Shown piece after piece: positions 2,909-41,766 of a DNA stretch of 64,000 nt (the stretch's first letter is position 1; each line of letters opens with the position of its first letter). This stretch comes from a virus. Where the stretch lies: the IMG/VR virus record IMGVR_UViG_3300027759_000050, positions 96,680-160,679 of that record; one strand, written 5' to 3'. The position numbers and the translations under genes were made by a program. The notes beneath the pieces are model-generated. The model ran no database searches. It was not told where the DNA came from and saw only the letters and a program-made list of their open reading frames with translations.

Positions 2909-3659
2909 TATCTGATCCTTTTGTCCAAGTGATTATTTCCCATTTACCGTCATGGTGTTCTACCAATGCAGTACAACTTTCAACCCAATCACCATCATTC
3001 ATATAAACAACACCATTAATATCCTTAATTTCCGCCTTGTGTATATGGCCACAAATTATACCATCATATCCACGTTTTTTGCAATAGTTAGATAGATTAT
3101 ACTCAAACTTGAACATAAAGTCAACAGCTTTTTTCACACGCTGTTTCAGATACTGACTTAAACTCCAATATCCAAAACCAAACTTATGTCTGAACCAATT
3201 AAATTTGGAATTTAAACTCAAAATTAAATCGTATGCTCTATCACCTAAGAATGCTAACCAAGGAGCCAATCTTGTGATACCATCAAACAAATCTCCATGA
3301 ACAACAAGGTAATGTTTACCGTCAGCACCAATATGTTCTATTTGATTATGTATTTCAACTAGACCAAAACTGAATCCATAGGGAATCATAGGTCTTAGGA
3401 ATTCATCGTGATTACCTGCCACATACACTACTCTAGTCCCGCGCTTGGCATGGCCAAGAATTCTACGAACAACATTAGTGTGGCTTTGTTTCCACCTCCA
3501 TTTGTTCTGTTGTATTCTCCATGCATCAATAATGTCACCCACAAGATAAAGAGTGTCGCAACTATTATGTTTTAAAAAGTTATTCAATCTATCTGCTTGA
3601 CAATCTTTGGTTCCTAAGTGAACATCAGAAATGAATATACTTCTATATGTCTTTTGCAT
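2895..3659 (-). CDS. LpxH-like calcineurin-type metallophosphoesterase
   Basis: 254 residues with all metallophosphoesterase motifs in order: SDVHLG (11-16), GDIIDAW, GNHDEF, HGD, and GHIH near residue 202. The combination with a long helical insert and the C-terminal MNDGDWVES is typical of the UDP-2,3-diacylglucosamine pyrophosphatase (LpxH) family, which makes lipid X in the lipid A pathway of Gram-negative bacteria. Substrate is inferred from family resemblance only; other diphosphates are possible. It is unusual cargo for a phage and sits between a glycosyltransferase and a thioredoxin within the nucleotide-metabolism region. Confidence 0.8.
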   Translation of the reverse strand: MQKTYRSIFISDVHLGTKDCQADRLNNFLKHNSCDTLYLVGDIIDAWRIQQNKWRWKQSHTNVVRRILGHAKRGTRVVYVAGNHDEFLRPMIPYGFSFGLVEIHNQIEHIGADGKHYLVVHGDLFDGITRLAPWLAFLGDRAYDLILSLNSKFNWFRHKFGFGYWSLSQYLKQRVKKAVDFMFKFEYNLSNYCKKRGYDGIICGHIHKAEIKDINGVVYMNDGDWVESCTALVEHHDGKWEIITWTKGSDNDAE

Positions 3660-3668
3660 TTTTTAAAT

Positions 3669-3914
3669 TTATGTTGTTAACCAAATTTCCAAATCGTTCT
3701 TAGTTTTCAAACCGGTCATTCTCTTAACTTCAATATTTTCATTCATCATTACAAGAGTCGGCACAGACCTAATACCAAACTCAACTGCAATATCAGAATA
3801 TTTGTCAATGTCGATTATCTCAATTAAAGTATCTCCTTTGACTTCTTCTAAAATAGCAGCCATTGATTTACATGGCCTGCACCACTCTGCTGTGAATCTT
3901 AAAATTCTTTTCAT
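3669..3914 (-). CDS. thioredoxin / glutaredoxin-like protein
   Basis: 81 residues, close to the size of the T4 NrdC type. The redox active site WCRPC lies at residues 11-15 and the cis-proline loop at SVPTL near residue 51. It would reduce the C-terminal cysteines of ribonucleotide reductase after each turnover, which fits its position between nrdB and nrdA. No signal peptide, so it should act in the cytoplasm. Confidence 0.88.
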   Translation of the reverse strand: MKRILRFTAEWCRPCKSMAAILEEVKGDTLIEIIDIDKYSDIAVEFGIRSVPTLVMMNENIEVKRMTGLKTKNDLEIWLTT

Positions 3915-3915
3915 T

Positions 3916-4560
3916 TTATTTCTCCGTTAATTTATTAACAAATTCCAATAATAACTTATGGTGTCTGCCCTCATGCCAATATTGTTTTAATTTCTTGTTA
4001 TCATACCACCATTCCAAAGAATCTAAACAGGCACCCATAACACCAATTTTACCTTGTCTAATACACATTGGTTCTTTATTATAATATGTGCTTACTATTT
4101 CTGAATGACTAAGGTCTCCTACAAACGTACAGCCGTCACGGAAGAATATTTGTTCTTCTTCACCTTCCCACATACAATGTGCAGCAATGTTAAAACTTCT
4201 CATGATGTCGGCGGTAGGCCTTTTGATATATTGTACAGGTTCTGCACCTTTTAAGATGTCAAAATAGTTTGGACCAGCCCAATAAGCACCAACACATATA
4301 CCAAGATATGCGCCACCATTTTCAACAAATTTAGCTACTGCGTTTGCTCTTTTCCTAGGAAACATATGAAAATAATCATCTGCATCACCAACACCTCCAG
4401 GAAATGCCAACATATCAACACACTCAAATGTTTCTTCTGTACATTGTTCTTTTTTAAAGATTTTAATATTAAAATGTGGTGACAGTGCTTCAATCACACC
4501 ATCAACACAAGATAGTGATTCTTTATTTCGGTCATCTTGGAATAGAGCTATAGTTTTCAT
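3916..4560 (-). CDS. class I glutamine amidotransferase-like (BPL_N) protein
   Basis: The start is set at ATG 4560, giving MKTIALFQDD and 214 residues; a longer reading frame exists upstream but overlaps the preceding gene completely. The fold has FPGGVGDAD and the nucleophile-elbow LGICVGAYWAG with a cysteine near residue 92, like the N-terminal domain of eukaryotic biotin-protein ligases and other amidotransferase-like proteins. A histidine follows in DLSHSE. Substrate unknown. It is 1 base from the thioredoxin gene and overlaps the upstream membrane-protein gene by 4 bases, so it belongs to the nrd operon. Confidence 0.7.
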   Translation of the reverse strand: MKTIALFQDDRNKESLSCVDGVIEALSPHFNIKIFKKEQCTEETFECVDMLAFPGGVGDADDYFHMFPRKRANAVAKFVENGGAYLGICVGAYWAGPNYFDILKGAEPVQYIKRPTADIMRSFNIAAHCMWEGEEEQIFFRDGCTFVGDLSHSEIVSTYYNKEPMCIRQGKIGVMGACLDSLEWWYDNKKLKQYWHEGRHHKLLLEFVNKLTEK

Positions 4561-4802
4561 TTTATTAATCTCCGTCTTAAAATCATACCAACGAAAGTAC
4601 CACAAAATGCACCTGCACCGGCGGGAATTAATAACCAATGGTCAACTGTATAATTTATAACTGCAACACAAGCAATAACGAAAACTATAGAAGCCCATAT
4701 ACTGGCATTAATTACTTTTTCTTCTTGTACCGATTTCAAATAGTAAGTATAAAATATGTCGGTAAAAAATACAGCAAAAAATGTCAGTATATACTCAAAC
4801 AT
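4557..4802 (-). CDS. small membrane protein, 81 aa
   Basis: Three hydrophobic segments are visible (residues about 1-20, 32-50 and 56-76), ending in the basic tail RRRLIK, so it is likely an inner-membrane protein. It overlaps the BPL_N-like gene by 4 bases (ATGA arrangement) and starts 2 bases after the nrdA stop. No family assigned. Confidence 0.6.
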   Translation of the reverse strand: MFEYILTFFAVFFTDIFYTYYLKSVQEEKVINASIWASIVFVIACVAVINYTVDHWLLIPAGAGAFCGTFVGMILRRRLIK

Positions 4803-4804
4803 AA

Positions 4805-6589
4805 TTAACCTTCACAAGCTATACAATCGTTACCTTGTGCAATTTGTGTCATATCTATTTCTTTAATGACTTGTCTTTCAATTCTCTTTGAAACTTTATC
4901 AGCTTTGCCAATCTTCTCTGAACGGCAGTAGTACAATGTCTTCAATCCTTTTTTCCATGCCATAAAATGGATAGCATGAAGATATTTGATGTTAACGTCT
5001 GGCCTGAAGAATAGATTCAGTGACTGTGCTTGGTCAATGTATACCTGTCTATCGGCAGCCAAATCAATTACCCAACGCTGGTCAATTTCCATAGATGTTT
5101 TGAATACCGCTTTTTGATTTTCATCTAAGATATTCAAATGTTGGACAGAACCATCATTAGCAATAATAGAAGACCACACTTCATTATATTCTTCTTCTGT
5201 TTGTGTCAATCCTTTAATGATTATATCAAGCCATCTGTTCTTATTTAAAAATGATCCAGATAAAGTGTCCTGACGGTAAGCGTTAGCACGGTAAGGCTCT
5301 ATACTAGGACTAGTATTTCGCATAATGATAGATGAAGAAGCATTTGGAGCAATAGCCATAAGATGACTGAAACGCTTGCCAGTACCAAGAGCATCTGGAG
5401 CTTCACCACGTTCTTTACCCAAAGTGAGATTAGCTTCATCTAATTTCTCTCTTATTGACTTAAAGATTCTATTGTTTGCGACCTTGGCCATAACTCCTTC
5501 AAAAGCGATTCCGTTTCGTTGGAGGTAGGCATGAAAGCCCAAGGCGCCAACGCCAATAGAGCGTTCACGAGCGGCAGAATACCTAGCACGTTGAATTGTA
5601 TCAGGAGCATTATCAATAAAATACTGCAAAACATTATCCAGCATTTCTGCAACATCTCTGAGAAATAATGGTTCATCTTTCCATTCATCGTAGTTCTCCA
5701 GATTTAACGAGGAAAGGCAACAAACAGCTGTTCTTTCTTTATCTGTCGGTAAAATGATTTCTGAACAAAGATTAGATTGGTGTACTTTTAGTCCTTTGTC
5801 CTTCAACCATTGCGGAAGCATTCTATTACTTGTATCAATGAAGTGGATGTAAGGTTCACCTGTGTGCATACGCAATTCAAGAATCTGTTGCCAAAGGTGT
5901 TTAGCTGAAACAGTTTCACGAATTACACCACTATATGGATCAACTAGATTCCAAGAATCATCCGCTGTTGGATCCAACATACAGTTTTCAATCAACTGCA
6001 TAAAGTCATCTGTGATATTTATTCCGTGATGGAGATTCAAGCAACGAACATTTGGGTCACCTGTGGGCTTACGCATTTCTAGAAAAGCTGTAATATCTGG
6101 ATGAGAAATATCAAGATAAGCGGCATAACTACCACGGCGAGTCCTACCTTGTCTATAAGCGAGAGATGATGCATCATAGATTTTAAGGTGGGGCATAACT
6201 CCAGTAGATTTATCATCCGCTGAGCGAATGCCAAAGCCGATGCCGACACCGCCGCCGAACATTGAGAGCCAATTTGTTTCAGATAGGTTGTCAACTAGAC
6301 CCTCCGCTGTATCATCGATAAAATTAAGGAAACACGATATTGGAAGTCCTTTTTTAGAACGACCATAAGATAAAATAGGAGTTGAATAAGATAACCAGTG
6401 TTTTGAGGAATAGTCGTACAATCGTTGAGTGTGAGCTGGGTCAGTTCCGAAGGCTGCGGAAACGAAGGCAAATCTTTCTTGTGGTGAAGTTTCATCATCT
6501 TTCATGTAAGACTCTTTAAGTCTTTTTATTCCTAATTCATCAAAGAGTTTATCTCTTTCTAAATCTATATTTATACCCATGTATTCCAT
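4805..6589 (-). CDS. nrdA: class I ribonucleotide reductase large (catalytic) subunit
   Basis: 594 residues; it begins directly with the catalytic domain and lacks the N-terminal ATP cone, so overall-activity control by dATP is probably absent. Active-site residues are recognisable: C86 in PISCFL, N273, C275 and E277 in NLCSEI, the second redox cysteine in AVCCLSS (290/291), the tyrosine pair Y553-Y554 of the radical path, and the C-terminal shuttle cysteines in CIAC (589/592). It forms the holoenzyme with NrdB at 1199..2185. The start ATG at 6589 is followed by a second ATG three codons later. Confidence 0.96.
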   Translation of the reverse strand: MEYMGINIDLERDKLFDELGIKRLKESYMKDDETSPQERFAFVSAAFGTDPAHTQRLYDYSSKHWLSYSTPILSYGRSKKGLPISCFLNFIDDTAEGLVDNLSETNWLSMFGGGVGIGFGIRSADDKSTGVMPHLKIYDASSLAYRQGRTRRGSYAAYLDISHPDITAFLEMRKPTGDPNVRCLNLHHGINITDDFMQLIENCMLDPTADDSWNLVDPYSGVIRETVSAKHLWQQILELRMHTGEPYIHFIDTSNRMLPQWLKDKGLKVHQSNLCSEIILPTDKERTAVCCLSSLNLENYDEWKDEPLFLRDVAEMLDNVLQYFIDNAPDTIQRARYSAARERSIGVGALGFHAYLQRNGIAFEGVMAKVANNRIFKSIREKLDEANLTLGKERGEAPDALGTGKRFSHLMAIAPNASSSIIMRNTSPSIEPYRANAYRQDTLSGSFLNKNRWLDIIIKGLTQTEEEYNEVWSSIIANDGSVQHLNILDENQKAVFKTSMEIDQRWVIDLAADRQVYIDQAQSLNLFFRPDVNIKYLHAIHFMAWKKGLKTLYYCRSEKIGKADKVSKRIERQVIKEIDMTQIAQGNDCIACEG

Positions 6590-6601
6590 CTTTATTCCTT
6601 A

Positions 6602-6964
6602 TTATTTTTTCAAAATACTTTTAATATCAGGCGGAGTCCAACCTTCAGGTTTTAGAACTTTTCCATCTGCTCTTTTTAATACTTTTCCAGTTTCATCGTC
6701 AATTTTGGCCAAATTACTTCTTGCAACTTCATTCCAAACATCTTGTTGTGGAATTTGCAAAGTGTGTTCTAATCCCTCAATTACCCATTTTAAATCTGCA
6801 CAACCATCTGCAATATCCACCATATTTCCGCGAAAAAAGGCATTCATTAATTCATCAAACTCTTCCCGAATTAAGGCCATATAAAGGTTTGATTGTTTTC
6901 CAAATCCTGTTTCTTTTTGGTCACAAGCGTCCATAAATCGTTTAACATCATCAGAACTATTCAT
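6602..6964 (-). CDS. MazG-like nucleotide pyrophosphohydrolase
   Basis: 120 residues. The pattern EEFDEL followed by DIADGCADLKWVIEG is the metal-binding EExxE...ExxD-type signature of the all-alpha NTP pyrophosphohydrolase superfamily (MazG / phosphoribosyl-ATP pyrophosphohydrolase-like). It probably hydrolyses a (deoxy)nucleoside triphosphate to the monophosphate, for example feeding dUMP to ThyX; exact substrate unknown. It overlaps the upstream th yX gene end by 8 bases. Confidence 0.75.
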   Translation of the reverse strand: MNSSDDVKRFMDACDQKETGFGKQSNLYMALIREEFDELMNAFFRGNMVDIADGCADLKWVIEGLEHTLQIPQQDVWNEVARSNLAKIDDETGKVLKRADGKVLKPEGWTPPDIKSILKK

Positions 6965-7604
6965 TTGTATACTCCATAATCATTGGGAAAATTGGTTCAA
7001 TTGCGGCCGCACATGCAAGAGCTATTTCTTGGTGTTCTTTCTGTGTTCCGTTTGCGCTTCGGAGTTGTATATAGTGGACCCATGACCTAAGGGTTCCGTT
7101 CATATACATGCGTGATTTTGTCATGCCTTCCGGTAAAATTGCACGAGCCTGTTCCTTTGCAATACCGTTGTCGAGGGCCCATTTGTATGTTTTTTGCACT
7201 TGTTCTAAAAGTTTATTTTGTTGAATTTGCCACATATCATCCAGTGTGAAGTCTGTACTAGGCAAACTATTTTGCCGATTTTTGGTATCTTGCAATCTTG
7301 CTTCACGCAATTCAAAACCAAGTTGTGATGCATCAGCATATCGTTGTGAAAACTCTTGGAATGAAAAAGAACGGTGACGCAAAATCTGCCTTGCAATGTC
7401 ACGGGTTGTTTCAATCTCCAAACACACCGAAACCACCTCCAACGGTGACCAGTGTTGATTGTTAATCAAGTATCTAACCAATTTCTCAGCAGTCTCTGAG
7501 TTGTTCTGGTTCGCTGGATTAGACACACGGGCCGCGTAGGCAACCTGGTCCATTAAACTTTTACCATCTACTCCCTGAGAGTATGAAATCAAATTTACAT
7601 TCAT
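6957..7604 (-). CDS. thyX: flavin-dependent thymidylate synthase
   Basis: The start is placed at ATG 7604, which overlaps the primase stop codon by 4 bases (ATGA). The protein has 215 residues. It contains the ThyX signature RHR-x7-S (R76-H77-R78 to S86), which binds FAD and dUMP, and the downstream R-rich substrate helix near RSWVHYIQLR. It methylates dUMP to dTMP with methylenetetrahydrofolate and NADPH. Together with NrdAB, the MazG-like protein and the dCMP deaminase at 40834 it forms a dTTP supply route. Confidence 0.95.
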   Translation of the reverse strand: MNVNLISYSQGVDGKSLMDQVAYAARVSNPANQNNSETAEKLVRYLINNQHWSPLEVVSVCLEIETTRDIARQILRHRSFSFQEFSQRYADASQLGFELREARLQDTKNRQNSLPSTDFTLDDMWQIQQNKLLEQVQKTYKWALDNGIAKEQARAILPEGMTKSRMYMNGTLRSWVHYIQLRSANGTQKEHQEIALACAAAIEPIFPMIMEYTNE

Positions 7605-8602
7605 ATTTTTTTCCAATTCACAAATTCCATTTTAGCCCTAAGATTCACAAAGGTGTGTTTCTCCATTATATCATGTAATTCTTCAATGTCAAATCCAGTT
7701 AATACCATATCATTAATGTCTTTGTCTGTTATGATTCCTGGCCAGACAACGACATTGAAATGGTTATCGACTGCATGTTCCATCAATTTTACGATTTCTT
7801 TATTCCTAGGTTCATTGTCGAAAACTAGTACAATTTTTGATTTGTCCAAATACTCTGCGGCCGATTCCAGTGACGAACTGGCGACAGCTACAGAATTTTT
7901 AATAAACATTGAATCGATTGGTCCTTCAAAGACATATATTGGTTTGTCTTCGTTTACACGGTTGATACCAAACATGCGTGGAACATCGTCCATGAGTTTG
8001 ATTGTGATGTAACGAATCTTTGACTGTCCAAGTGCTCGGCCTTGAAATCCAGTCAGGTTCCCTTCTTTATCATAGAAAGGGATGATTAGGCGTTTGTCGC
8101 CTTCCATAATATCTTTTTCAACTTCAAACGAATCCACAAAAGCCTTGAAGTCATCCGAATAATATAACTGCGAATACATATTTCTTGGTATCATTCTACC
8201 CATAACATATTTCTTAGCATAGTGTTCATCTGGCAACGATTCAATTGTCGGCAAGTCCAATTTCTTGGAAAATACAGGTTTGACCTTCAGTTCTGAAAAC
8301 TCAGGTTCAGGCGAATTGGTATTTGCAGAGTTTTTATACCGTTCCATCTGGTATTCCTCAAGTAGATTAGGATCAACTTGTTTTAGGAAATTATAGAACG
8401 ATGTGGATACACCACAATTGTGACACATATAGAAGTAGTCATTCTTCTTGCGATAGACATAACCACGGCATTTGCTTTTGTTTTTCTGTGAGTCTCCACA
8501 GAGAGGACACCGAAAATTATAGAGGTCATCTTTCTTCTTGGAGAACTTCTGTAATTTGGGTGATAGTTGTAATAGAAAATTTCTGTCAATGAAGACGCTC
8601 AT
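7601..8602 (-). CDS. 61: DNA primase, T4 gp61 family
   Basis: 333 residues. An N-terminal zinc-binding module is visible (C32xxC35 in CPLCG and C60xxC63 in CHNCG), then a TOPRIM-like catalytic core with the acidic motifs YVFEGPIDS, VLVFDNE and DKDIND. It synthesises the RNA primers for lagging-strand replication and works with the gp41 helicase encoded at 27475..28866. It is translationally coupled to thyX downstream. Confidence 0.93.
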   Translation of the reverse strand: MSVFIDRNFLLQLSPKLQKFSKKKDDLYNFRCPLCGDSQKNKSKCRGYVYRKKNDYFYMCHNCGVSTSFYNFLKQVDPNLLEEYQMERYKNSANTNSPEPEFSELKVKPVFSKKLDLPTIESLPDEHYAKKYVMGRMIPRNMYSQLYYSDDFKAFVDSFEVEKDIMEGDKRLIIPFYDKEGNLTGFQGRALGQSKIRYITIKLMDDVPRMFGINRVNEDKPIYVFEGPIDSMFIKNSVAVASSSLESAAEYLDKSKIVLVFDNEPRNKEIVKLMEHAVDNHFNVVVWPGIITDKDINDMVLTGFDIEELHDIMEKHTFVNLRAKMEFVNWKKI

Positions 8603-11863: not shown

Positions 11864-12241
11864 TTACATCCTTGGTGGAGCTCTATGACCCATTGGTTGA
11901 AGGACCACTTTTCTTTTCTTTTTCAGATAAACACCAGGTTCACCACCTTTGCCACCTGAACCTGCAATAGCACCAGTACCTACAACATTGGTAGGACCCG
12001 GAACAGCTATACCGTCTTCTTTCATATAGCTTTCTTTGATGTTTGCAATGTAATTATAATCATCCATTGTTAGAGTTCCTTTATTGCGTATATCAATAAG
12101 TCTCTCTACGACACGGTGTAGGTCCATGTCTGATTTAATATCTTCTCTTGCTAATTCTAAAACACGAATCATCAAAGGAATATCTAATGCGATTGTGTCT
12201 TTCTTGTCAGCTTCAGTTACAAATTGTTTGAATGATTTCAT
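11864..12241 (-). CDS. small head-associated protein with capsid-targeting-like N-terminus
   Basis: The start is placed at ATG 12241 (TAATG junction with the gene upstream), giving 125 residues that begin MKSFKQFVTE. This matches the pattern of the T4 capsid-targeting leader, where the prohead protease cuts after a glutamate at position 10 in an (L/I)-x-E context. The rest has a helical part (residues 20-75) and a glycine-rich, basic C-terminus. Function unknown; predicted to be packaged inside the head. Confidence 0.6.
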   Translation of the reverse strand: MKSFKQFVTEADKKDTIALDIPLMIRVLELAREDIKSDMDLHRVVERLIDIRNKGTLTMDDYNYIANIKESYMKEDGIAVPGPTNVVGTGAIAGSGGKGGEPGVYLKKKRKVVLQPMGHRAPPRM

Positions 12242-12756
12242 TAGCAATTCCATTTTCTTAATGCTAATGCTTTGCGTGAAGGTTCACCATTAGGTTTTTT
12301 CATTGCACCTTTCATACCACCCATTCTAGCACAAAATGATTTACGGCGGTTGGCTGCTTTAGAACCTGGTTTCAATTTTGATGGCTTTGTAGTCACTGCC
12401 ATACTTAACTTTGAACCTGGATTTTCACGGCGGTATGATGCAATACCTTTGCGGTTTAAACCACCTTTTGGATCTTTTCCTTCTTTACGGCGCCATGCCG
12501 CAGATTCATATAGTTCTTCATCCGATACATCTGCAAGTTCTTCCCAAATGATTTCAGGATCAATATGGTGTACTTCTGAGATTTCCATGACCAGTTCTTC
12601 AATAATATCAAACATTGCTTCCACTTCTTCTGGAACACAATTAGGAACTGTTCGACCACCCTTTTCTTTAGTGCCGACTGGATGATAACCAGTCCAACAA
12701 GGGTTTGTGTTTTTTAAGGTCTTTTTTTCTTCCAGGAATTGTTTGAATGATTTCAT
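12241..12756 (-). CDS. DUF6321-like basic protein with capsid-targeting-like N-terminus
   Basis: 171 residues beginning MKSFKQFLEE, with L-E-E at positions 8-10 as in a prohead-protease site. The C-terminal half is highly basic and conserved in marine phages (AAWRRKEGKDPKGGLNRKG, then GSKAANRRKSFCARMGGMKG), suggesting nucleic-acid binding. A cysteine near residue 20, C40, C147 region and the last residue might bind metal. It overlaps the upstream gene by 4 bases. Confidence 0.68.
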   Translation of the reverse strand: MKSFKQFLEEKKTLKNTNPCWTGYHPVGTKEKGGRTVPNCVPEEVEAMFDIIEELVMEISEVHHIDPEIIWEELADVSDEELYESAAWRRKEGKDPKGGLNRKGIASYRRENPGSKLSMAVTTKPSKLKPGSKAANRRKSFCARMGGMKGAMKKPNGEPSRKALALRKWNC

Positions 12757-15027: not shown

Positions 15028-15861
15028 TTATTCCGAAGTTCCTGTTTTTCCCAACATTTCTTTGATTCTCTTGAATGTAGGTTTAACAGCTTTATTGATT
15101 TCTCTGTGTGTTGCAGAATCGGTAACAAAAGGTACAGCAGTATCTGTGCCTTTACCTTCAGCTTTCAATGTTGCTTTTTTACCAGAGAAATGAGCATTTG
15201 CATTTTTCACTTCTGGATCATTGGAGAGTGTAGGTCCTTTAAGTGTATCAACTCTTACAGCTTTCTTTCCTTTGTTTTCTCCAACGACACTTTGCATTGC
15301 ACCAATGTCTTCTTTGGTTAAACGGTCAATTGCTTTTTCAACACCATCTCTGCGTTTCCAAGACGTTTGTTTATATTTACTGGATAGTTGAGTGTTGGAA
15401 TCTTTCATACCTGGACTTCTTGCTCTGTCAGCCCTGTTTTCAAAATCTGCGCCAATTTTACGCATAATTGTAGCATCACGGGATGCTTTCTTAGCATACG
15501 AACCAAGAGTGGACTTTGACAATTCATCAAGTTCTTCAACTTCTTCTTTTTTCATTCTTAGTAATTTGAAATCGTGGGAATCTAATTTACCATTGCGATT
15601 CTTGTCCAACTTGTGTTGGTCGCCTTTTAATTCTTCCGACACATCTTCTTCTTTAACGTCCTTAGGAATAGCCATTTTAGCTAAATGTTTAACTCTAGAA
15701 GCATCACCATGGCCAGGTTTTGTATCTGGTTTTTTGTATGGACCATCAAATGGAGGAGTTTCTTTTTTCTTTCCAGGTTCAAGGAGCAATTTTTTGTCTT
15801 CAGCTAAAACAGATTCAACTGCGTCTATCATTGATTGTGAAACACTATTCTTAGTAAACAT
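15028..15861 (-). CDS. lysine-rich head-associated protein with EF-hand-like loop
   Basis: 277 residues. The segment DKNRNGKLDSHDF has the spacing of a calcium-binding EF-hand or dockerin loop (D, N, N, G, D, D). It is followed by ELDELSKSTLGSYAKKAS, a module shared with the next gene. Very basic overall. Its start forms a TAATG junction with the large gene upstream. Likely a virion or prohead protein; function not known. Confidence 0.6.
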   Translation of the reverse strand: MFTKNSVSQSMIDAVESVLAEDKKLLLEPGKKKETPPFDGPYKKPDTKPGHGDASRVKHLAKMAIPKDVKEEDVSEELKGDQHKLDKNRNGKLDSHDFKLLRMKKEEVEELDELSKSTLGSYAKKASRDATIMRKIGADFENRADRARSPGMKDSNTQLSSKYKQTSWKRRDGVEKAIDRLTKEDIGAMQSVVGENKGKKAVRVDTLKGPTLSNDPEVKNANAHFSGKKATLKAEGKGTDTAVPFVTDSATHREINKAVKPTFKRIKEMLGKTGTSE

Positions 15862-17624
15862 TATTTTGCTCCTGATTTTTTGTTTTGTATTTTAGGTGTA
15901 ATACCTGATTTTATGTATTTATCTGTAGGCTTAACTAGAGGTTCTTTGTTCATTGCACCACCCATAACACCTGCAACTCCCATTTCATTGCCTGTTTCAC
16001 CGGAGTATACGGATTCTTTGAAACCTTTGAGTTTTTTCTTTTCACCTAGTGGATTTGGATTGACATTTTTAGGTCTAGAATCTAAACCAGCACCGGCAAC
16101 ATTTATGTTATCGAATTCTTCCGCTTCACTGTAGGTCTGATTACCCAATCCTGCACCACCAATGCTTGCTGCATCACCGCCGCCGCCACTTCTTGCATTC
16201 GTTGTTTGGCCAATACCAGTTCCGTCAGAAACTCTATTATTTGTTAATGCAGTCTTTTTCTTGCCAGTTTCTTTGTCTTTATTGAAATTGGCTTCCGCAT
16301 AGGTTCTAAATGCGTATGTACTATTTGATTTTACATCACCGTCCCGAACATCATCTTGTTTACCCATCTTATATTGAGCTTGCATAAAAGGACTGTTATT
16401 ATCTTTTAGAATTTTAACTTTTTTAATCTTAGAACTTTCATACAAACCCCTGAAACGATTTCCATTCTGTAGAGATTCGATGATGGAACTAGATGACAGG
16501 AACTCTTTTGTTAGTTTGTAAGTTTCTGTAATATCTTCTTCTTTAGATTCTAAGTCACCGGAATTGTCAAATCTTACAAAATCAGTAAACATTTCTGAAA
16601 GTTGTTCAGCATTATTTTGTGCTTTTTCCCACTTTTGTTGGCGAATAGATTCCATCATCATCTTGGACAACAATGTGTTTCTTTCTTGACTGACTGAATT
16701 GGTTGTATCTACAAAGACCATCATTGTCTTGTAACCCAAATCTTCCAATTCTTCCTTGATTTGACCAATCTTCTCCAAATCATCTGCCGGTCCATTGATA
16801 ATCAATGGTGCGCGGGTGCGTATGGATTCGAATTTTGGACTCATGGATCTCATTGCAAGTTTGTGTTTATCGTTTAGAATATCAACAACTTGTTGGAAAT
16901 TATGTTCAACAATTTTTTGTGAAGCAATACATTCACGAACGATAATGTCTTTACCAGAACCAGGGCCACCAGTTACAAAGATTGCTTTGTGGCGGCCATA
17001 ACTGTAATCTTCATGTAATCCCATTCCTTTGCGGACATCATGCATCAATTCTTTTGCATGGTGTTCAGGTACATGAGAGGGAACACCTTTACGGAATTCT
17101 CCGAAGTTACTATTCTTGGCATGTTCACGCATCTTGGTGCCAGACATTCCTTCTGTACCCTCTGCGTCAGGATCTCTTTGTCCCGCAGAATGAACAGTTA
17201 TCTTCTTGAAATGATACAGAGCTCCAGGATGATTTCCATTGTATTGGTGTAACTTGTCGTGCATTTCTTTCACGCGGTCAGAACCAACAACCATGTGCAA
17301 GTGTGTCACACCTTTTTTATTTAATTCAGCTGCGTGTTGTAGAAAAGTTGGTTTCTCTTTAGAAGAAGCTTCAAAATGTGTACCAGGCGAATATCTTTTC
17401 AGGTGTTTAATCTTCTGTTGAGAAGAAAGTGGGTTCTTTTTTGAATCCTGTGAATGTGAAACAACCACAGCGGAATGATCCGCATGTTGTTTTTTTGCAA
17501 CTTCTTTTACTTTGTCTATAAGCTTTAGATGACCAGTAGTCGGAGGATTCATCCGACCAAAGGACATTACATGGTGAACATCACCAGATGCTTTTTCTTG
17601 TATAACTTCTAAAAAGGATTTCAT
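15861..17624 (-). CDS. NadR-like nucleotidyltransferase and P-loop kinase fusion, capsid-targeting-like leader
   Basis: 587 residues. The protein starts MKSFLEVIQE, with I-Q-E at 8-10. A nucleotidyltransferase domain follows, with the T/HxGH-type motif in FGRMNPPTTGH (22-32), GSDRVKE and SAGQRDPDAEGTEGMSGTK (about 146-164), as in NMN adenylyltransferases. A second domain has a Walker A box GGPGSGKD at 219-226, like the ribosylnicotinamide kinase half of NadR. The last 200 residues are low-complexity, rich in G, N and K. Known family activities would be nucleotide adenylylation and nucleoside phosphorylation; substrate is inferred. The leader suggests packaging in the head and delivery with the DNA. 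Confidence 0.72.
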   Translation of the reverse strand: MKSFLEVIQEKASGDVHHVMSFGRMNPPTTGHLKLIDKVKEVAKKQHADHSAVVVSHSQDSKKNPLSSQQKIKHLKRYSPGTHFEASSKEKPTFLQHAAELNKKGVTHLHMVVGSDRVKEMHDKLHQYNGNHPGALYHFKKITVHSAGQRDPDAEGTEGMSGTKMREHAKNSNFGEFRKGVPSHVPEHHAKELMHDVRKGMGLHEDYSYGRHKAIFVTGGPGSGKDIIVRECIASQKIVEHNFQQVVDILNDKHKLAMRSMSPKFESIRTRAPLIINGPADDLEKIGQIKEELEDLGYKTMMVFVDTTNSVSQERNTLLSKMMMESIRQQKWEKAQNNAEQLSEMFTDFVRFDNSGDLESKEEDITETYKLTKEFLSSSSIIESLQNGNRFRGLYESSKIKKVKILKDNNSPFMQAQYKMGKQDDVRDGDVKSNSTYAFRTYAEANFNKDKETGKKKTALTNNRVSDGTGIGQTTNARSGGGGDAASIGGAGLGNQTYSEAEEFDNINVAGAGLDSRPKNVNPNPLGEKKKLKGFKESVYSGETGNEMGVAGVMGGAMNKEPLVKPTDKYIKSGITPKIQNKKSGAK

Positions 17625-18662
17625 TTAGTTTGTGTGGCCCAAAGTTTTTTTGAATTTTTCCATATGTTCATCGTGGTCTAAATTAACGTGACTGTGATTT
17701 AGACCTTTTTTACCATCTGGATGGAAAGCTACTGTACGAGCTGATTTATTACCTTTTTGTTTTTCTCTAATTCTCCAGACACCTTTGCCTGAAATTTTAG
17801 GCAGGCCATGACCTGTTTCATCATGTTCACCAACTCTATAAGTACCGTGGCCACCAACTTGCAATACGTGTACATGATGGTCTTTTAGATAACCTTCTGC
17901 TGGATGTAGATTTGGATGTTTAATTTCAATAGTTTTAGCACGACCAGATTCTGTTGAAACTGCCTTATCAGGATGTGGTTCATGTTTGTTCATGTGGTCA
18001 AGAATACCTGATTTTTCAATATGTTTTGCATATTCAGGTCTTTTCTTTTTGGCTGCATCACCAACATGCCAACCTTTTTCTTTTGTATGGTGAATTGTCA
18101 ATTGACCCATTGCAGCGGTAACACCGTTCTTTGTTTCACCGTTAAGTAATCCGCCTGTAACTGAACCTGCGTGGAATTTACCTTTTTTCTTATTTTCGAC
18201 AGCAAAATCTGTACCGCCAGTAGAACCTGCACCGGACATATGATGTGGCATAACTCCATGATGTTTTAATCTTGCAACAAATTTATTCTCATAGTCATGC
18301 CCTTTGTTTTCTGGAGCTTCACCTGGCTTATGCAACTTTGAAGCAAGCATTGTGTGGTGATTACCAACTTCATCTTCAACATGAACATGAGTTTGATGTT
18401 TACCCGTAACAAGATTATAATGTTTTTCAACACCATGAATTTTTACCGAAGAACCTTTAGGTAAATCATCATGTTCAGAAGCTAATGTGTGAGTAGGAGT
18501 TTTTGAACCAACATGTGGTAGTATGTACTTTTTTACATGAGCTTCAGCATCTGCACCTGACGCAGAAATTTTACCTCGACCCTCAGAAAGGATTGGTATA
18601 CCATCTTCATCGACTTCTATGCCAGCTCTTTCCCAATAAATTTGTTTTTGTCTATCTATCAT
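17625..18662 (-). CDS. histidine-rich head-region protein
   Basis: 345 residues with very high histidine, glycine and lysine content and no membrane segment. The N-terminus MIDRQKQIYWERAG resembles that of the next gene (MISLQRKIWLDRAG), which points to a shared targeting or assembly signal. A central part (GAGSTGGTDFAVENKKKGKFHAG) has a nuclease-like look, but no full motif can be confirmed. It abuts the NadR-like gene. Function unknown. Confidence 0.55.
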   Translation of the reverse strand: MIDRQKQIYWERAGIEVDEDGIPILSEGRGKISASGADAEAHVKKYILPHVGSKTPTHTLASEHDDLPKGSSVKIHGVEKHYNLVTGKHQTHVHVEDEVGNHHTMLASKLHKPGEAPENKGHDYENKFVARLKHHGVMPHHMSGAGSTGGTDFAVENKKKGKFHAGSVTGGLLNGETKNGVTAAMGQLTIHHTKEKGWHVGDAAKKKRPEYAKHIEKSGILDHMNKHEPHPDKAVSTESGRAKTIEIKHPNLHPAEGYLKDHHVHVLQVGGHGTYRVGEHDETGHGLPKISGKGVWRIREKQKGNKSARTVAFHPDGKKGLNHSHVNLDHDEHMEKFKKTLGHTN

Positions 18663-18664
18663 TT

Positions 18665-19666
18665 TTATGCCCTTTCGTCCGATTTTACATTTCCGGATCT
18701 TCCTTCACCCTTAGGTAGTGCAATTCTAGGACGAGGTCCTTCATAGTTTTGTTGATCCACATGTGAAACTTTTGCTTCTTTACCCGCAGTTGATGATTTT
18801 ACTAAATGAGAAGCTGCTTGAGCTGAACCTTTTCCAAATTTACCTTCACCTGTAGTAGCTTCTTTTCTAACAAAATGGTTCAATTCAGGATGTCTATCGT
18901 GAGCTGAATTCATAGCTTTTTGAGCTTCATCACGATGATGTTCCATTTCTGACCTAGAAGAAGTTTTCATAGAATTTAAATGTTTAGCCACCGAACCCAT
19001 ATCTTTCATAATACCGGAATGGATTTCATCTTTCTTTTTTTGCGGTAAATTTTTATATTTTGGATGGTTGTTTAACATTTCTCTCGCAGCATGGTCATGT
19101 ACTGCATTATTTTCTTCTGGTCCACCTGACATTAATTGTGAACCGCCGCCCTTTTTCATTGAAAGTCTAATTCCTGAATGATTATTATCATTAGGATTAT
19201 GGATTGAAACATCAGCTTTAGATGTTGCACCTTTAGTCGCTCCATGCTTTTTCCATGTATCCGTAACAGTTCCTCTATCACCACCCATAACTTTTGCTTT
19301 ATGTTTTTCTTTTATTGCTTTTTTGAAATCTGGATGATTGGCTAGTGCATGAATTGTATGTACTGCTGTTTCATGTTCTGAATGATAACTATGTTCTGCT
19401 TCTTTTGTTTTTTTGCCGCCGGTGAAACCTTTATCCTCAGCATTGTTGAAATGTAAAGGATGAGTTTTATCGTTTTTTGATTTTTCTAATTCTTTCATCA
19501 TAGAAGGCTTATCATGAGCAATTCCTTTGCCAACCATGTGATTCCATATATTGGCATGAGCGTGTTCATCATTATAACTCACACCACTTTGTGCTTCATC
19601 TAATGGACCAATTTGTTCCATTAGACCAGCTCTATCCAACCAAATTTTTCTCTGTAGAGAAATCAT
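18665..19666 (-). CDS. histidine-rich head-region protein, N-terminus similar to neighbour
   Basis: 333 residues, histidine-, lysine- and serine-rich. Starts MISLQRKIWLDRAG, paralogous at the N-terminus with the gene at 17625..18662. A region around KADVSIHNPNDNNHSG with IRLSMKKGGGSQL could be the core of a nuclease or ligand domain (D...SxKxG pattern), but this is not firm. It overlaps the upstream gene by 4 bases. Probably co-expressed with the other late head proteins. Confidence 0.55.
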   Translation of the reverse strand: MISLQRKIWLDRAGLMEQIGPLDEAQSGVSYNDEHAHANIWNHMVGKGIAHDKPSMMKELEKSKNDKTHPLHFNNAEDKGFTGGKKTKEAEHSYHSEHETAVHTIHALANHPDFKKAIKEKHKAKVMGGDRGTVTDTWKKHGATKGATSKADVSIHNPNDNNHSGIRLSMKKGGGSQLMSGGPEENNAVHDHAAREMLNNHPKYKNLPQKKKDEIHSGIMKDMGSVAKHLNSMKTSSRSEMEHHRDEAQKAMNSAHDRHPELNHFVRKEATTGEGKFGKGSAQAASHLVKSSTAGKEAKVSHVDQQNYEGPRPRIALPKGEGRSGNVKSDERA

Positions 19667-20418
19667 TTTCTCACCTTTAGTCTGTTTTGTTTTGCGAACT
19701 CTGCTCTATTTACTAGCTTTGTTGGTTCAGATTTTCCAGATTCTGGAGTATGATGAACCACAAATCCTTCGGGTTTAGATTTAACACCGCTGATGTGGTG
19801 TTCATAATGGCCTTCGTGGCCCTCTAGATGTTTAACTAGAGTATTCTTAGCTTGTGCTAAATGGTGGTGCATCGTCAAAAGATTCTGATAATGCTCTTTA
19901 TTTTTCTCAATATGGTCGATATGTTCTTGTCCTGCAGCAGTTTTTGCATTCTTTGACGCATCTGTTTTGACTTTATCTGCCATCTTGGCGTGTTGAGACT
20001 TGATGTGATTCTTCAATCCTGTGACATTTGGAACTTCGCCTGTGTCAACGGTTTTGTTGATATAGGTCGTTAAATGAGTATTTTCACCTCTGTGCTTGGA
20101 GGTTGCAGGATACATTTTTGCACCATGTGTGTCATGGATTTCTTTTGCCGCAGCCATGTGCTTGTGAAATTCATCCTGAGCGTGTACTGGGTAATCAACT
20201 TTTGCTGTGTCATGTCCTGCGCCGTGGTGGTGAACATCTTTGTGCTGTTTAAAGTTGTGTAGGTCAACATCATGGTGTGCGGACATATTACTAATGTCGG
20301 AACCATGATATTTTGTGTGGACTACTACGCCGACTTTAGATGCACCAATCTTTTTAGCCTCATCACCGTGTGCGGTGTATGTGATTGTATTTGGAGTAAA
20401 TGATACTTTTTTAGTCAT
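19663..20418 (-). CDS. C-terminal half of split DUF6267-like / ligase-like protein
   Basis: 251 residues. The start SFTPNTITYTA and the later KVGVVVHTKYHG correspond to the second half of a single protein known from cyanophages, whose first half is encoded by 20411..20857. PEGFVVHH (216-223) resembles motif IV of covalent nucleotidyltransferases (EGxV). It has its own start codon ATG 20418 and a plausible Shine-Dalgarno (AGAGG) 11 bases upstream inside the first gene, so it is probably translated as a separate chain. The two frames differ by +1. Confidence 0.65.
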   Translation of the reverse strand: MTKKVSFTPNTITYTAHGDEAKKIGASKVGVVVHTKYHGSDISNMSAHHDVDLHNFKQHKDVHHHGAGHDTAKVDYPVHAQDEFHKHMAAAKEIHDTHGAKMYPATSKHRGENTHLTTYINKTVDTGEVPNVTGLKNHIKSQHAKMADKVKTDASKNAKTAAGQEHIDHIEKNKEHYQNLLTMHHHLAQAKNTLVKHLEGHEGHYEHHISGVKSKPEGFVVHHTPESGKSEPTKLVNRAEFAKQNRLKVRK

Positions 20419-20857
20419 GGTGGTGTAAATCCTCTGAGGAATGCATCATATCGCCTTGGTAAACACCATGTTTTGGTGTGACTTTTGGCAAATGTTTCAA
20501 AGCAGCTTTAAGTTTTGATGCAAGTCCTGGTGCGTGGCCATGGTTCTTGTCAACATCAGCTTCTGTGTGATTGATTTTTGGTGTCTTATTGAACGCGGAT
20601 TTACTTGCGACAAAGAATTTACCTGTTTTTGGGTGGTGTCCAAAGATAATTGCAGGTGAACCATCGTATTTCATGGTCAAATTACTGCTGTTTGCTTTGG
20701 CTTTCATGTGTTCGTGAGCTTGCATCAAAGCACCATGTGCATGTTCAAAACCTTCGGCACCGTGCATTAATGGACGGTCTTCCGCGTGATGAATATGTTT
20801 TAAAGCCGAACCTTCTGGTTCTGCCTCTTCTTTTAAGAAGGAAATAAAAGTTTTCAT
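20411..20857 (-). CDS. N-terminal half of split DUF6267-like / ligase-like protein, capsid-targeting-like leader
   Basis: 148 residues starting MKTFISFLKE (L-K-E at 8-10). Motif MKYDGSPA at 62-69 matches the lysine-x-D-G motif I of ATP-dependent ligases and capping enzymes, where the lysine takes up AMP; GKFFVASKSAFNK and GVYQGDMM follow as in the unsplit cyanophage proteins. The frame stops at HHHD just where the C-terminal half begins. First gene after the late promoter at 20900. Confidence 0.65.
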   Translation of the reverse strand: MKTFISFLKEEAEPEGSALKHIHHAEDRPLMHGAEGFEHAHGALMQAHEHMKAKANSSNLTMKYDGSPAIIFGHHPKTGKFFVASKSAFNKTPKINHTEADVDKNHGHAPGLASKLKAALKHLPKVTPKHGVYQGDMMHSSEDLHHHD

Positions 20858-33853: not shown

Positions 33854-33927
33854 TGGAGCGGGATAAGAGAATCGAACTCTTGACCGAAGATTGGAAATCT
33901 GCTGTTTTACCATTAAACTAATCCCGC
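33854..33927 (-). tRNA. tRNA-Gly (anticodon TCC)
   Basis: Full cloverleaf by eye: acceptor GCGGGAT/ATCCCGC, T-loop TTCGATT, anticodon loop TTTCCAA, encoded CCA. The last tRNA of the array in transcription order. Confidence 0.93.
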
Positions 33928-33932
33928 ATATT

Positions 33933-39713: not shown

Positions 39714-39801
39714 TGGCGGAAGCGGTGAGATTCGAACTCACGGACCCTTGCGAATCGCTAGTTTTCAAGACTAGAGCCATAGACCACTCGACCACACTTC
39801 C
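39714..39801 (-). tRNA. tRNA-Ser (anticodon TGA), class II
   Basis: Acceptor GGAAGTG/CGCTTCC, anticodon stem CTAGT/ACTAG with loop CTTGAAA, long variable arm, discriminator G, encoded CCA. Confidence 0.93.
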
Positions 39802-39809
39802 AAAAAATA

Positions 39810-39906
39810 CCATATAAAAACATTCTTATTCTCCATACCTTCTTGGGGATCAATCCAAGGTCTTACTTCACAGAACCTGCGTCCAGTTTAGAATGTTTTT
39901 ATATGG
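39810..39906 (-). repeat. spacer hairpin F (perfect 17-base inverted repeat)
   Basis: CCATATAAAAACATTCT at 39810..39826 pairs with 39890..39906. The latter includes the CCA of tRNA-Gln. A T-arm-like CTTGG...CCAAG lies in the loop. Confidence 0.7.
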
Positions 39907-39977
39907 CAGGGGCACTAGGAATCAAACCTAGACTAAGAGATTCAAAGTCTCCTGTGCTATCACTACACAATGCCCCA
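39904..39977 (-). tRNA. tRNA-Gln (anticodon TTG)
   Basis: Acceptor TGGGGCA/TGCCCCT, anticodon stem GGAGA/TCTCT with loop CTTTGAA, discriminator G, encoded CCA. Confidence 0.9.
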
Positions 39978-39978
39978 A

Positions 39979-40004
39979 CAAATTACACTTACTTTTTAAA
40001 GAAC
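39979..40004 (-). repeat. tRNA leader repeat, copy 2
   Basis: Second copy of the 26-base repeat, one base before the 5' end of tRNA-Gln. On the minus strand it contains TGTTCTTTAAAAAGT (39991..40005), close to rRNA-operon boxA. Confidence 0.7.
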
Positions 40005-40031
40005 ATGATTGATTTCTCAACCGAATAACCT

Positions 40032-40060
40032 AGTGTAACAGAAGTCGATGCATCTGTCAA
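40032..40060 (-). promoter_or_regulatory. sigma70-type promoter of the tRNA-Gln/Ser/Cys unit
   Basis: Minus-strand TTGACA (40055..40060), 17-base spacer, TACACT (40032..40037), followed by GTTGAGAAA and the leader repeat, like the promoter at 39463. Confidence 0.72.
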
Positions 40061-40086
40061 CACGTTTGTTGTATTGGAACAACAAA

Positions 40087-40113
40087 AAACCCCACTTTTT
40101 TAGGGTGGGGTTT
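40087..40113 (-). terminator. intrinsic terminator upstream of the tRNA promoters
   Basis: Perfect 9-base stem AAACCCCAC/GTGGGGTTT followed on the minus strand by a T-run. It ends the transcript of the 40.3-42.3 kb operon. The stretch 40114..40293 behind that operon holds no recognisable gene. Confidence 0.8.
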
Positions 40114-40293
40114 GTGAATTCTGATTTAGTTTTCTTACTCTATTATCGTCCTCCACAACCCCCAACATGCGCCCATGGTTGATTATCGCTACCAATAAAC
40201 GGTGTGCGATACTCACAGGCTGACAATAAGGACTTGAGGAACTGAGACACTATAACTCCGAAAAAAATTTAACTATAACTCTATATATACAAC

Positions 40294-40812
40294 TTATTTA
40301 GTGGTTTCTAAAGTTTTCCACTTTATTTCTTCATATTTTGCAGGATCTTCTGGATTCCTAAATTCTTCAAAGACTTCCCACAACTTTTCTTCAACTGAAA
40401 ATTTTGTAACGAGACTGGTCTCCAGTCCGTATGCTTCTATTTCCCATGGATGAAACCAGTAATCTAAATTATCTGAATCAATTTCTTTCTTATGCCAAAC
40501 ACTCAAAGAAGCATTCGTATGTTGATATGCAAATTGTTTCACATGGACCATTTCATGAGCCATTGTTCTAAACAAAGCTGGCGCGCCGATTCCTGGTTTT
40601 ATGTTGATTAGAAATTCTCTAGGTTTCCTACTTGTTTCATAATCAGCAACTTCACAACTTCCATGACTATCTAATGTTTTATCAAACTTAACCAGAACAT
40701 AAATGTGTGGAGATAATTGAGGTGAGAACAAATTTTTAGCGAAGAAGTGGGCGGCCTTTTTTAGATAAGGTTTGAATTTTTCATCAGGACAACCAACAAT
40801 CTTCAAATACAT
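40294..40812 (-). CDS. SprT-like zinc metalloprotease-type protein
   Basis: 172 residues from ATG 40812 (a GTG two codons earlier is less likely). The zinc-binding motif HEMVH lies at residues 86-90, in MAHEMVHVKQF, with a later HPWEIEAYGLE that could give the third ligand. This is the SprT-like minigluzincin pattern, often linked to DNA-protein crosslinks or to secreted peptidases; no signal peptide is seen. Last gene before the terminator. Confidence 0.72.
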   Translation of the reverse strand: MYLKIVGCPDEKFKPYLKKAAHFFAKNLFSPQLSPHIYVLVKFDKTLDSHGSCEVADYETSRKPREFLINIKPGIGAPALFRTMAHEMVHVKQFAYQHTNASLSVWHKKEIDSDNLDYWFHPWEIEAYGLETSLVTKFSVEEKLWEVFEEFRNPEDPAKYEEIKWKTLETTK

Positions 40813-40833
40813 AGGCACCCCATTTTTTCATAA

Positions 40834-41271
40834 TTATTTATTATTATCAGACCAAACACTAACTCCACATTTCATCAAAAAGGCAACACCAGATTCATCA
40901 CGGTAAGGTTCTCCAAAGTAAACTTTCTTGATACCTGCTGTGTATATCTGTTTAGCACAATGAATGCAAGGAGCGTGCGTTAGGAACATTGTGGCACCAT
41001 CTCCAGATTCTGAAGACTTAGCCAATTTGGCAATCGCATTCGCTTCCGCATGGATAACTTCATCTTTGGTTTTTAATCTTTCATCACCATTTTCATCATA
41101 GAATATGGTTTCACATTCATTTGTCCAACCTGCTGGCATTCCATTATATCCAATAGAAATGATCCGGTCATCTTTCACAACAATGGCACCTACTTGTAGG
41201 CGTTTTGCGGACGATAGTTGTGCAAACCTTCTTGCTACATCCATGTACGCATCAATAAATTTCTGTCTCAT
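40834..41271 (-). CDS. cd: dCMP deaminase
   Basis: 145 residues from ATG 41271. Zinc site HAE (74-76) and PCIHC (101-105) of the cytidine/deoxycytidylate deaminase fold, and a GYNGMPAGW substrate loop as in T4 Cd. It converts dCMP to dUMP, supplying ThyX. Lies 2 bases from the next gene upstream. Confidence 0.93.
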   Translation of the reverse strand: MRQKFIDAYMDVARRFAQLSSAKRLQVGAIVVKDDRIISIGYNGMPAGWTNECETIFYDENGDERLKTKDEVIHAEANAIAKLAKSSESGDGATMFLTHAPCIHCAKQIYTAGIKKVYFGEPYRDESGVAFLMKCGVSVWSDNNK

Positions 41272-41273
41272 AA

Positions 41274-41594
41274 TTAATATACTTCCGGGTATTCTCCTGA
41301 ACCTAAAACACAAGCAAACTTTGCATCATATTCTATTACTGTCCATGATTTTGTTTTCACATTTTCTAGAAAAGCTATCTGTGTAGGTTTCCCATCTATT
41401 GCCAAATCGTTTGGTGCAACCCGAAGTATTTTCTCTCCGTATATTTTTTCTAGTCCCATTAAAAGTGCTTTTGTTTCTGCACACTTTATTGGTTTCTTTG
41501 CATCTATAAATTTGATATTATCCAAACCAGCATCTTGGCCATGACTAATGGCAACAGTCACACATAATAAAAGTCCCGTTACCATCTTCTTCAT
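41274..41594 (-). CDS. secreted small protein, 106 aa
   Basis: Signal peptide MKKMVTGLLLCVTVAISHG (cleavage near residue 19-20), then a compact domain with two cysteines (IKCAETK and FACVLG). The segment KSWTVIEYDAKFACVLGSGE is known to me from marine phages without a function. Probably periplasmic. Located in the same operon as dCMP deaminase. Confidence 0.62.
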   Translation of the reverse strand: MKKMVTGLLLCVTVAISHGQDAGLDNIKFIDAKKPIKCAETKALLMGLEKIYGEKILRVAPNDLAIDGKPTQIAFLENVKTKSWTVIEYDAKFACVLGSGEYPEVY

Positions 41595-41612
41595 GTTATC
41601 TCCTTGAAAGGT

Positions 41613-41687
41613 TGGTGCGCCAAGTAGGAATTGAACCTACACTCAGTCGATTATGAGTCGAACGCTTTACCATTAAGCTATTGGCGC
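41613..41687 (-). tRNA. tRNA with anticodon CAT (Ile2 or elongator Met)
   Basis: Acceptor GCGCCAA/TTGGCGC, anticodon stem TTCGA/TCGAC-type with loop CTCATAA, T-arm GTAGG-TTCAATT-CCTAC, encoded CCA. The CGACTCATAATCG anticodon arm recalls E. coli tRNA-Ile2. Confidence 0.88.
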
Positions 41688-41691
41688 GTAT

Positions 41692-41766
41692 TGGTCCGGC
41701 GTGAGGGAATCGAACCCCCATTGGAAGGGTAGAAGCCTACTGTATTATCCATTATACTAACGCCAG
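41692..41766 (-). tRNA. tRNA-Arg (anticodon TCT)
   Basis: Acceptor CTGGCGT/ACGCCGG, anticodon loop CTTCTAC, T-arm GGGGG-TTCGATT-CCCTC, encoded CCA. Confidence 0.88.

Follow-up and report, generated by a model that had tools for sequence, protein, structure and literature searches.

We analysed a 64,000-nucleotide stretch of viral DNA (hereafter the window; positions 96,680 to 160,679 of IMG/VR record IMGVR_UViG_3300027759_000050) and focused on a single gene at window positions 15861-17624, on the minus strand, whose 587-amino-acid product combines a short leader, an HxGH-type nucleotidyltransferase (NTase), a degenerate P-loop kinase and a Gly/Lys/Asn-rich tail. With a probability of roughly 0.6, we propose that this protein is a member of the T4-GC190 'cytidylyltransferase' family that carries a degenerate fused kinase, is packaged in the capsid and is injected with the DNA. 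The record is a 160,679-base contig, possibly a fragment, of a T4-type phage, classified as such because the window contains head protease, scaffold, major head protein, tail tube, helicase and DNA polymerase families. Earlier publications already cover a virion-borne NTase of this kind and its reading as an enzyme of nicotinamide adenine dinucleotide (NAD) metabolism. What looks new is the fused pseudokinase, together with the correspondence between leader and virion content in cyanophage S-CREM2: our literature searches gave no description of the fusion of an NTase to a degenerate kinase, or of the S-CREM2 match, and none of the literature matches listed ties a capsid targeting sequence to a phage cytidylyltransferase.

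The gene is one open reading frame (ORF) of 587 amino acids that runs from an ATG at 17624 to 15861, and all of its parts lie on the minus strand. The capsid-targeting-type leader covers residues 1-12 (MKSFLEVIQE.., 17589-17624) and was recognized by its conservation in the family and by comparison with T4. The HxGH-type NTase domain, identified by Pfam, PHROG and fold matches, spans approximately residues 16-204 (17013-17579) and holds GRMNPPTTGH (residues 23-32, 17529-17558), which is the HxGH motif in TxGH form, and a second nucleotide-binding motif, SGTKMR (residues 161-166, 17127-17144), which we take to be of the ISSTxxR type. The P-loop kinase-like domain, predicted to be catalytically degenerate, follows at residues 205-382 (16479-17012) with a Walker A motif, GGPGSGKD (residues 219-226, 16947-16970), in which Asp replaces Ser/Thr, and NGPADD (residues 277-282, 16779-16796), where Asn277 stands in place of the Asp of standalone kinases. 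A variable tail rich in Gly/Lys/Asn makes up residues 383-587 (15864-16478). An earlier sequence-only reading of this DNA placed FGRMNPPTTGH and GGPGSGKD in one chain, and both occur there exactly as written. It also called the tail low-complexity, which is a fair term for a mild case, as G/N/S/K/T account for 49% of residues 381-587 vs 34-36% of both domains.

Relatives of the fused protein were collected with seeds derived from the window, so the counts given here describe relatives and not all phages. The NTase motif appeared in a frame at 134 of the 160 loci returned; of the 26 loci without one, five were stretches of the opposite strand of the window's record. Several contigs were present in two loci. 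Of the frames, 131/134 reached at least 380 amino acids; after HTVC008M and DLP6 were taken out and the set was thinned at 92% identity, 56 members were left, or 57 with the window.

In the leader, M1, K2, F4 and E10 were invariant in 57/57 fused members, and while our start-codon rule preferred MK[STNLI], making M1 and K2 partly a matter of construction, it had no bearing on F4 and E10. Residues 8-10 read [LIV]xE in 52/57. The ten N-terminal residues of the T4 internal protein IPIII are described as sufficient for packaging, with targeting dependent on positions 4 and 7, processing dependent on positions 8 and 10, and cleavage by the T4 head protease after L/I-x-E (PMC9026906). The window protein has F4, V7, I8 and E10, which places suitable residues at all four positions and creates an L/I-x-E cleavage site. 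Searched as DNA, the leader pattern matched four genes of the record, all of them at 12.2-20.9 kb of the window, vs one match to the reversed control pattern. The peptide form matched five ORFs in the window, none in the reversed sequence and none in each of 20 shuffles. We therefore consider the leader no accident. T4 served as a positive control and gave six matches, with the starts of ipII, ipIII and 61.1 among them and the remaining three inside genes 43, 12 and e.5; ipII and ipIII are annotated internal virion proteins. As a separate observation, T4 gene 61.1 (NC_000866 18966-19130) has 54 codons, no assigned function and an IPIII-like leader, making it a candidate packaged peptide.

Virion proteomes of related phages link this leader to packaging. 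For S-CREM2 we fixed three peptide patterns together and ran them once over the genome, which returned one ORF with the strict, four with the middle and six with the loose pattern. The annotated genes with the leader were gp6 (S-adenosylmethionine hydrolase), gp13, gp14 (APH/ChoK-like kinase) and gp154, the homologue of the window NTase, and the loose pattern added two frames outside annotated genes. All 4/4 annotated genes were among the 52 virion-detected proteins of 219 coding sequences (hypergeometric 0.0029) in the published S-CREM2 virion proteome (PMC10665884), where gp13 is credited with one peptide and gp154 with three. S-SM1 had four pattern matches, of which the one at a gene start was SSM1_190, the T4-GC190 cytidyltransferase; Sullivan et al. 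2010 report T4-GC190 in the S-SM1 virion and as part of the cyanophage core (PMC3037559). Syn9 had three, with the cytidyltransferase gp184 as the one gene start and two others antisense within other genes. The S-SCSM1 NMN (nicotinamide mononucleotide) adenylyltransferase (NMNAT), ORF91, was found in virions according to its authors (PMC9602691), and we count it tentatively with T4-GC190. The sequence-only reading had predicted a virion protein with a capsid-targeting-like leader, and homologues with the same leader in these published proteomes support it. By this analogy, the window protein is likely packaged in the head via its leader.

The NTase half was clearly assigned. Pfam CTP_transf_like (PF01467) matched residues 22-167 of the window protein (E 1e-6, 29.4 bits vs a cut-off of 21) and 57/57 members at E<=0.01, and PHROG 3041 (E 1.9e-61) and PHROG 395 (E 6.7e-43) are both named 'cytidyltransferase'. 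Relatives by tblastn occurred in 523/50,697 phage records, by far mostly from Synechococcus and other cyanophages, and none covered 80% of the query. The motifs GRxNPP[TH]xGH and (SGT/SAS)xxR were retained across S-CREM2, DLP6, HTVC008M and the window protein, in phages of hosts from Synechococcus to Stenotrophomonas; the narrower form SG[TS]K[ML]R of the second motif was absent in 9/56 members. The ratio of nonsynonymous to synonymous substitution rates (dN/dS) was low in this domain. In three members (L102, L104 and L116) the P-loop domain is ordinary (69%) but the NTase is divergent, its identity to the window being 48% in L102, and the RDPDAEG stretch is missing, a pattern of module replacement. 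A second, short PF01467 gene with a HAGH motif lies outside the window at record positions 89651-90022, and we set it aside as a probable sugar/glycerol nucleotidyltransferase, judged by eye.

The P-loop half was harder to place by family search, with AAA_19 at 21.5 bits, below its cut-off, and Zeta_toxin at E 0.044, though Zeta_toxin matched 41/57 fused members. It aligned with the standalone kinase gp129 of Pelagibacter phage HTVC008M (26% identity, E 1e-13), which matched Zeta_toxin (E 3.1e-13) and AAA_33 (E 3.8e-11) and had PSTK as its nearest NCBIfam and PDB relative. Among the matches listed for 69 IMG/VR loci found with gp129, most distinct loci had an NTase frame directly after the kinase frames. 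Modelled alone, the P-loop domain reached a predicted local distance difference test score (pLDDT) of 88.7 and a predicted template modelling score (pTM) of 0.85, and its best folds were polynucleotide kinase 4gp7 (Z 13.2 over 142 residues at 2.6 Å) and PSTK 3adc (Z 12.8); guanylate kinases (Z 12.8) tied within 1 Z of 4gp7. T4 polynucleotide kinase 1ly1 matched at E 1.6e-5. The domain is thus related in fold and sequence to phage polynucleotide kinase/zeta-type (AAA_33) kinases. It occurred in 8/50,697 phage records, and the NTase fusion was absent in HTVC008M, Melnitz-3 and Atu_ph07, the three inspected among these. A separate canonical kinase of this type was not found elsewhere in the record, where both matches fell inside the fused gene.

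Four positions that standalone kinases conserve were changed in 57/57 fused members. We compared the fused members with eight standalone kinases, taken from 13 frames thinned at 85% identity after leaving out four adenylate-kinase-type frames (195 amino acids) and one unrelated P-loop protein. At position 226, which closes Walker A, D was found in 57/57 fused members vs T in six and S in two standalone kinases, and GKD was present in 131/131 frames examined. Position 244 was D in 8/8 standalone kinases and mostly I, T, V or Q in fused members, with no D among the four commonest residues. Position 277 was N in 57/57 vs D in 8/8, and lid position 319 was L in 57/57 vs R in 8/8. The domain is not decaying, because its dN/dS was 0.026-0.163 in 9/10 finite comparisons and 0.364 in the tenth (undefined in 3/13) and because new residues, Q245, D252, E266, R269, N277, R328 and others, were fixed in at least 56/57 members. 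From these residues, the P-loop half is probably a pseudokinase, and it is under purifying selection; a rewired active site, which the same conservation would allow, is also possible.

These observations are consistent with the following sequence of events. Working as a T4-type capsid-targeting sequence, the first ten residues would bring the protein into the core of the scaffold, the head protease would cut after Glu10 (L/I-x-E), and the mature enzyme would leave the head with the DNA at infection; packaging is known for homologues only, and ejection is inferred. The HxGH domain, with its motifs kept, is probably active in nucleotidyl transfer, with ATP as the most likely donor (of AMP) and a small phosphorylated metabolite or another molecule as the acceptor. 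The P-loop domain would descend from a kinase of the polynucleotide-kinase/zeta type, which Pelagibacter-type phages still encode canonically in a gene of its own beside the NTase. Because catalytic residues were lost while selection continued, phosphorylation of a substrate is the less likely function, and the domain most likely binds a nucleotide or the end of a nucleic acid, or else serves to regulate or anchor the NTase.

Several points weigh against the proposal. The exact [LI]xE at residues 8-10 occurred in only 25/57 members. The leader is also not universal: the pattern had no match in the HTVC008M or DLP6 genomes, and the HTVC008M NTase, a relative at 40.6% identity, begins MKTLKELLRK, without Glu10. 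Asp at the last Walker A position occurs in some active kinases, and Asp226 alone therefore proves nothing; loss of activity is argued from the four changes combined. The full-length AlphaFold2 model (pLDDT 79, pTM 0.48) does not fix how the NTase and P-loop domains pack against each other. The evidence for packaging applies by analogy: it comes from homologues whose shared parts are limited to the NTase and leader, and none of it from fused members. In addition, the S-CREM2 authors allow that non-structural virion proteins may be co-purified contaminants (PMC10665884).

Comparison with known systems defined what is shared and what is particular to the window gene. The T4-GC190 proteins SSM1_190, gp184 and S-CREM2 gp154 have the NTase domain in common with it (35.5% identity and E 1e-29 for S-CREM2) and likewise an M-K leader ending in LxE, and the S-SM1 and Syn9 copies adjoin DUF6267 downstream of replication genes, like the window gene. 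However, these three are much shorter (286-387 vs 587 amino acids), the S-SM1 and Syn9 proteins lack the P-loop motif GxxxxGK[STD], and S-CREM2 gp154 has no P-loop family match. HTVC008M has the same two modules, at 26% (kinase) and 41% (NTase) identity to the window, but as two genes in the order kinase then NTase, with gp129 just upstream of gp130; its kinase is canonical (GKT, NSD, DSTG). T4 IPII and IPIII share the ten-residue capsid-targeting leader but are not enzymes of this kind.

Among the alternatives, the one we regard as a real but minority possibility is that the protein is a packaged NMNAT, in which the NTase half alone is active and converts host NMN to NAD+ early in infection, as already published for cyanophages. 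Virion papers name the homologue NMNAT or NMNAT-like, and an early influence on NAD by such proteins is a published speculation (PMC10665884, PMC9602691). The main text of the S-SZBM1 paper (PMC9146016) mentions neither NMNAT nor adenylyltransferase. The folds of NadM (Z 13.1) and NadD (Z 12.5) were close to that of the NTase, but phosphopantetheine adenylyltransferase was at least as near (Z 14.2), and since these lie within ~1-2 Z of each other the fold does not name a substrate. Family models gave weak matches, with the archaeal NMNAT model at 16.5 bits (cut-off 127) and PHROG 3462 at E 0.0059. Against solved structures, neither a phmmer search with the full-length protein nor an hmmsearch with a first profile returned anything useful, and an NTase-only profile had its best sequence match in UPF0348 MJ0951 (E 0.00037), with archaeal NMNAT at only 0.51. 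NADases release nicotinamide and ADP-ribose, and NMN must be made before an NMNAT can act (PMC12774641). A lone NMNAT would thus not obviously refill an NAD-drained cell, and no NMN-making phage enzyme was found in the record.

A second alternative, which we consider unlikely, is an injected kit for repair or modification of nucleic acids or tRNAs, in which the polynucleotide-kinase-like domain has turned into a module that binds ends, the NTase supplies it with an activated acceptor and DUF6267 is a partner. DUF6267 is a conserved neighbour, encoded on the minus strand as two halves: the N-terminal half (20411-20857) has the same leader type (MKTFISFLKE) and a KYDG motif, and the C-terminal half is at 19663-20418. 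In HTVC008M, DLP6, Melnitz-3, Syn9 and S-SM1, DUF6267 is likewise found upstream of the NTase, and PHROG 455 matches both in one profile. Its conserved blocks (HxEH, KxDG, QGD, EG[FY]V and KLVDR-like) resemble ligase-type nucleotidyltransferase motifs by eye; a DUF6267 profile found no ligase in solved structures, which counts against that resemblance, and we found no phage literature on the family. The kinship of the kinase half to polynucleotide kinase and the tRNA kinase PSTK also suits such a kit, as do the UPF0348 match of the NTase profile, a match to HIGH_NTase1_ass in 2/57 members and a run of 28 tRNA genes in one stretch of the window (33854-41766). We take UPF0348 to be the family of the tRNA-acetylating enzyme TmcAL, and the link is faint. 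On the other side, the kinase catalytic residues are gone and HxGH enzymes are not known to act on RNA ends. A more specific version, which we hold to be speculative, is that freshwater T4-type phages carry in the head a kit marked by the shared ten-residue leader, in which the NTase-pseudokinase would recognize damaged or cleaved RNA/DNA ends and work with the ligase-like DUF6267 before phage gene expression. That the targets would be, for example, tRNAs cut by defence nucleases is equally speculative.

It is improbable that the protein is mainly a structural or DNA-compacting internal head protein with vestigial enzyme domains, as its Lys/His-rich composition and long basic tail might suggest, given that the NTase motifs are kept across phages of Synechococcus to Stenotrophomonas hosts and that dN/dS is low in the NTase domain.

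The sequence-only reading saw the layout of NadR and proposed that the kinase makes NMN from nicotinamide riboside and the NTase makes NAD+, refilling at once a cell drained by its defences. We rejected this as the principal explanation. The NTase-P-loop chain with its capsid-targeting-type leader held up, as did the domain order shared with NadR and the HxGH-type adenylyltransferase domain, but the NadR layout was not supported. The NCBIfam NadR model TIGR01526 scored 12.7 bits vs a cut-off of 341.15, the P-loop half was of the polynucleotide-kinase/PSTK/zeta type, and an intact kinase active site was missing (D226, no D244, N277, L319); predicted active sites lacking substrate residues, which that reading had itself named as grounds for abandoning the idea, were thus found in the kinase half. 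PF04095, PF00293, PF13521 and PF13793 had no match in the record, while their controls gave matches in 6, 14, 14 and 14 of 14 genomes, respectively, and PF13521 was not among the 14 families listed for the 57 fused members. We take PF13521 (AAA_28) to be the NadR ribosylnicotinamide-kinase family, PF04095 the Nampt-like Namat/NAPRTase family and PF13793 the Prs-like Adps family. In the record, which may be a fragment, we accordingly found no nicotinamide-salvage partner, with no NAPRTase, Prs-like, AAA_28 or Nudix match, and neither component of the phage NAD+ reconstitution pathway NARP1 (Adps + Namat). The 50 fold matches listed for both models rank other families and include no NadR-titled entry, which we did not use as evidence. 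Iyer et al. do count phage NadR and NadM as enzymes that counter depletion by rebuilding NAD (PMC9503650), but with the wrong kinase family, lost residues and no partner genes a bifunctional NadR-like salvage enzyme is very improbable here.

If the proposal is true, a ten-residue pattern read from phage genomes predicts the enzymes that enter together with the DNA, ahead of transcription, and leader-marked enzymes would be the class best placed to blunt host defence. The protein would also provide a clear test case, a virion enzyme in which the kinase half is still under selection although catalysis has gone. It serves as a warning that domain order alone is insufficient for naming such fusions NadR or NMNAT.

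The surrounding genes provide context for packaging. The leader would be processed by the head maturation (prohead) protease, encoded on the minus strand at 60858-61502; the head scaffolding protein (59654-60820) and the major head protein (58279-59616) are encoded on the same strand. Two further minus-strand neighbours carry the leader, MKSFKQFLEE in a protein with DUF6321 (12241-12756) and MKSFKQFVTE in another (11864-12241). The two DUF6267 frames (19663-20857) overlap at stop/start, and the split is natural, as 9/13 relatives with readable frames were split and four were single-frame; one further locus gave no frame. Between DUF6267 and the fused gene, two His/Lys-rich upstream proteins (17625-19666) are PD-(D/E)xK nuclease-like by eye, and the product of 18665-19666 aligns with HTVC008M gp126 (E 7e-10).

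In marine loci, the NTase was found as part of a long chain that also has PAP2, pol-beta NTase and DUF5824 domains. Taken together, these genes appear to be a collection of injected enzymes assembled from interchangeable modules, much like the host-injected polyvalent proteins noted in PMC9503650. One marine IMG/VR contig, L184, encodes an adenylate kinase (3184-3771, PF00406 E 4e-38) that starts with MKSFRDFIFE, a capsid-targeting-type leader, and is positioned upstream of a zeta-type kinase and an NTase. The same contig has at 4441-7833 a 1130-amino-acid chain matching PAP2, pol-beta NTase, HxGH NTase and DUF5824, likely an injected multi-domain protein.

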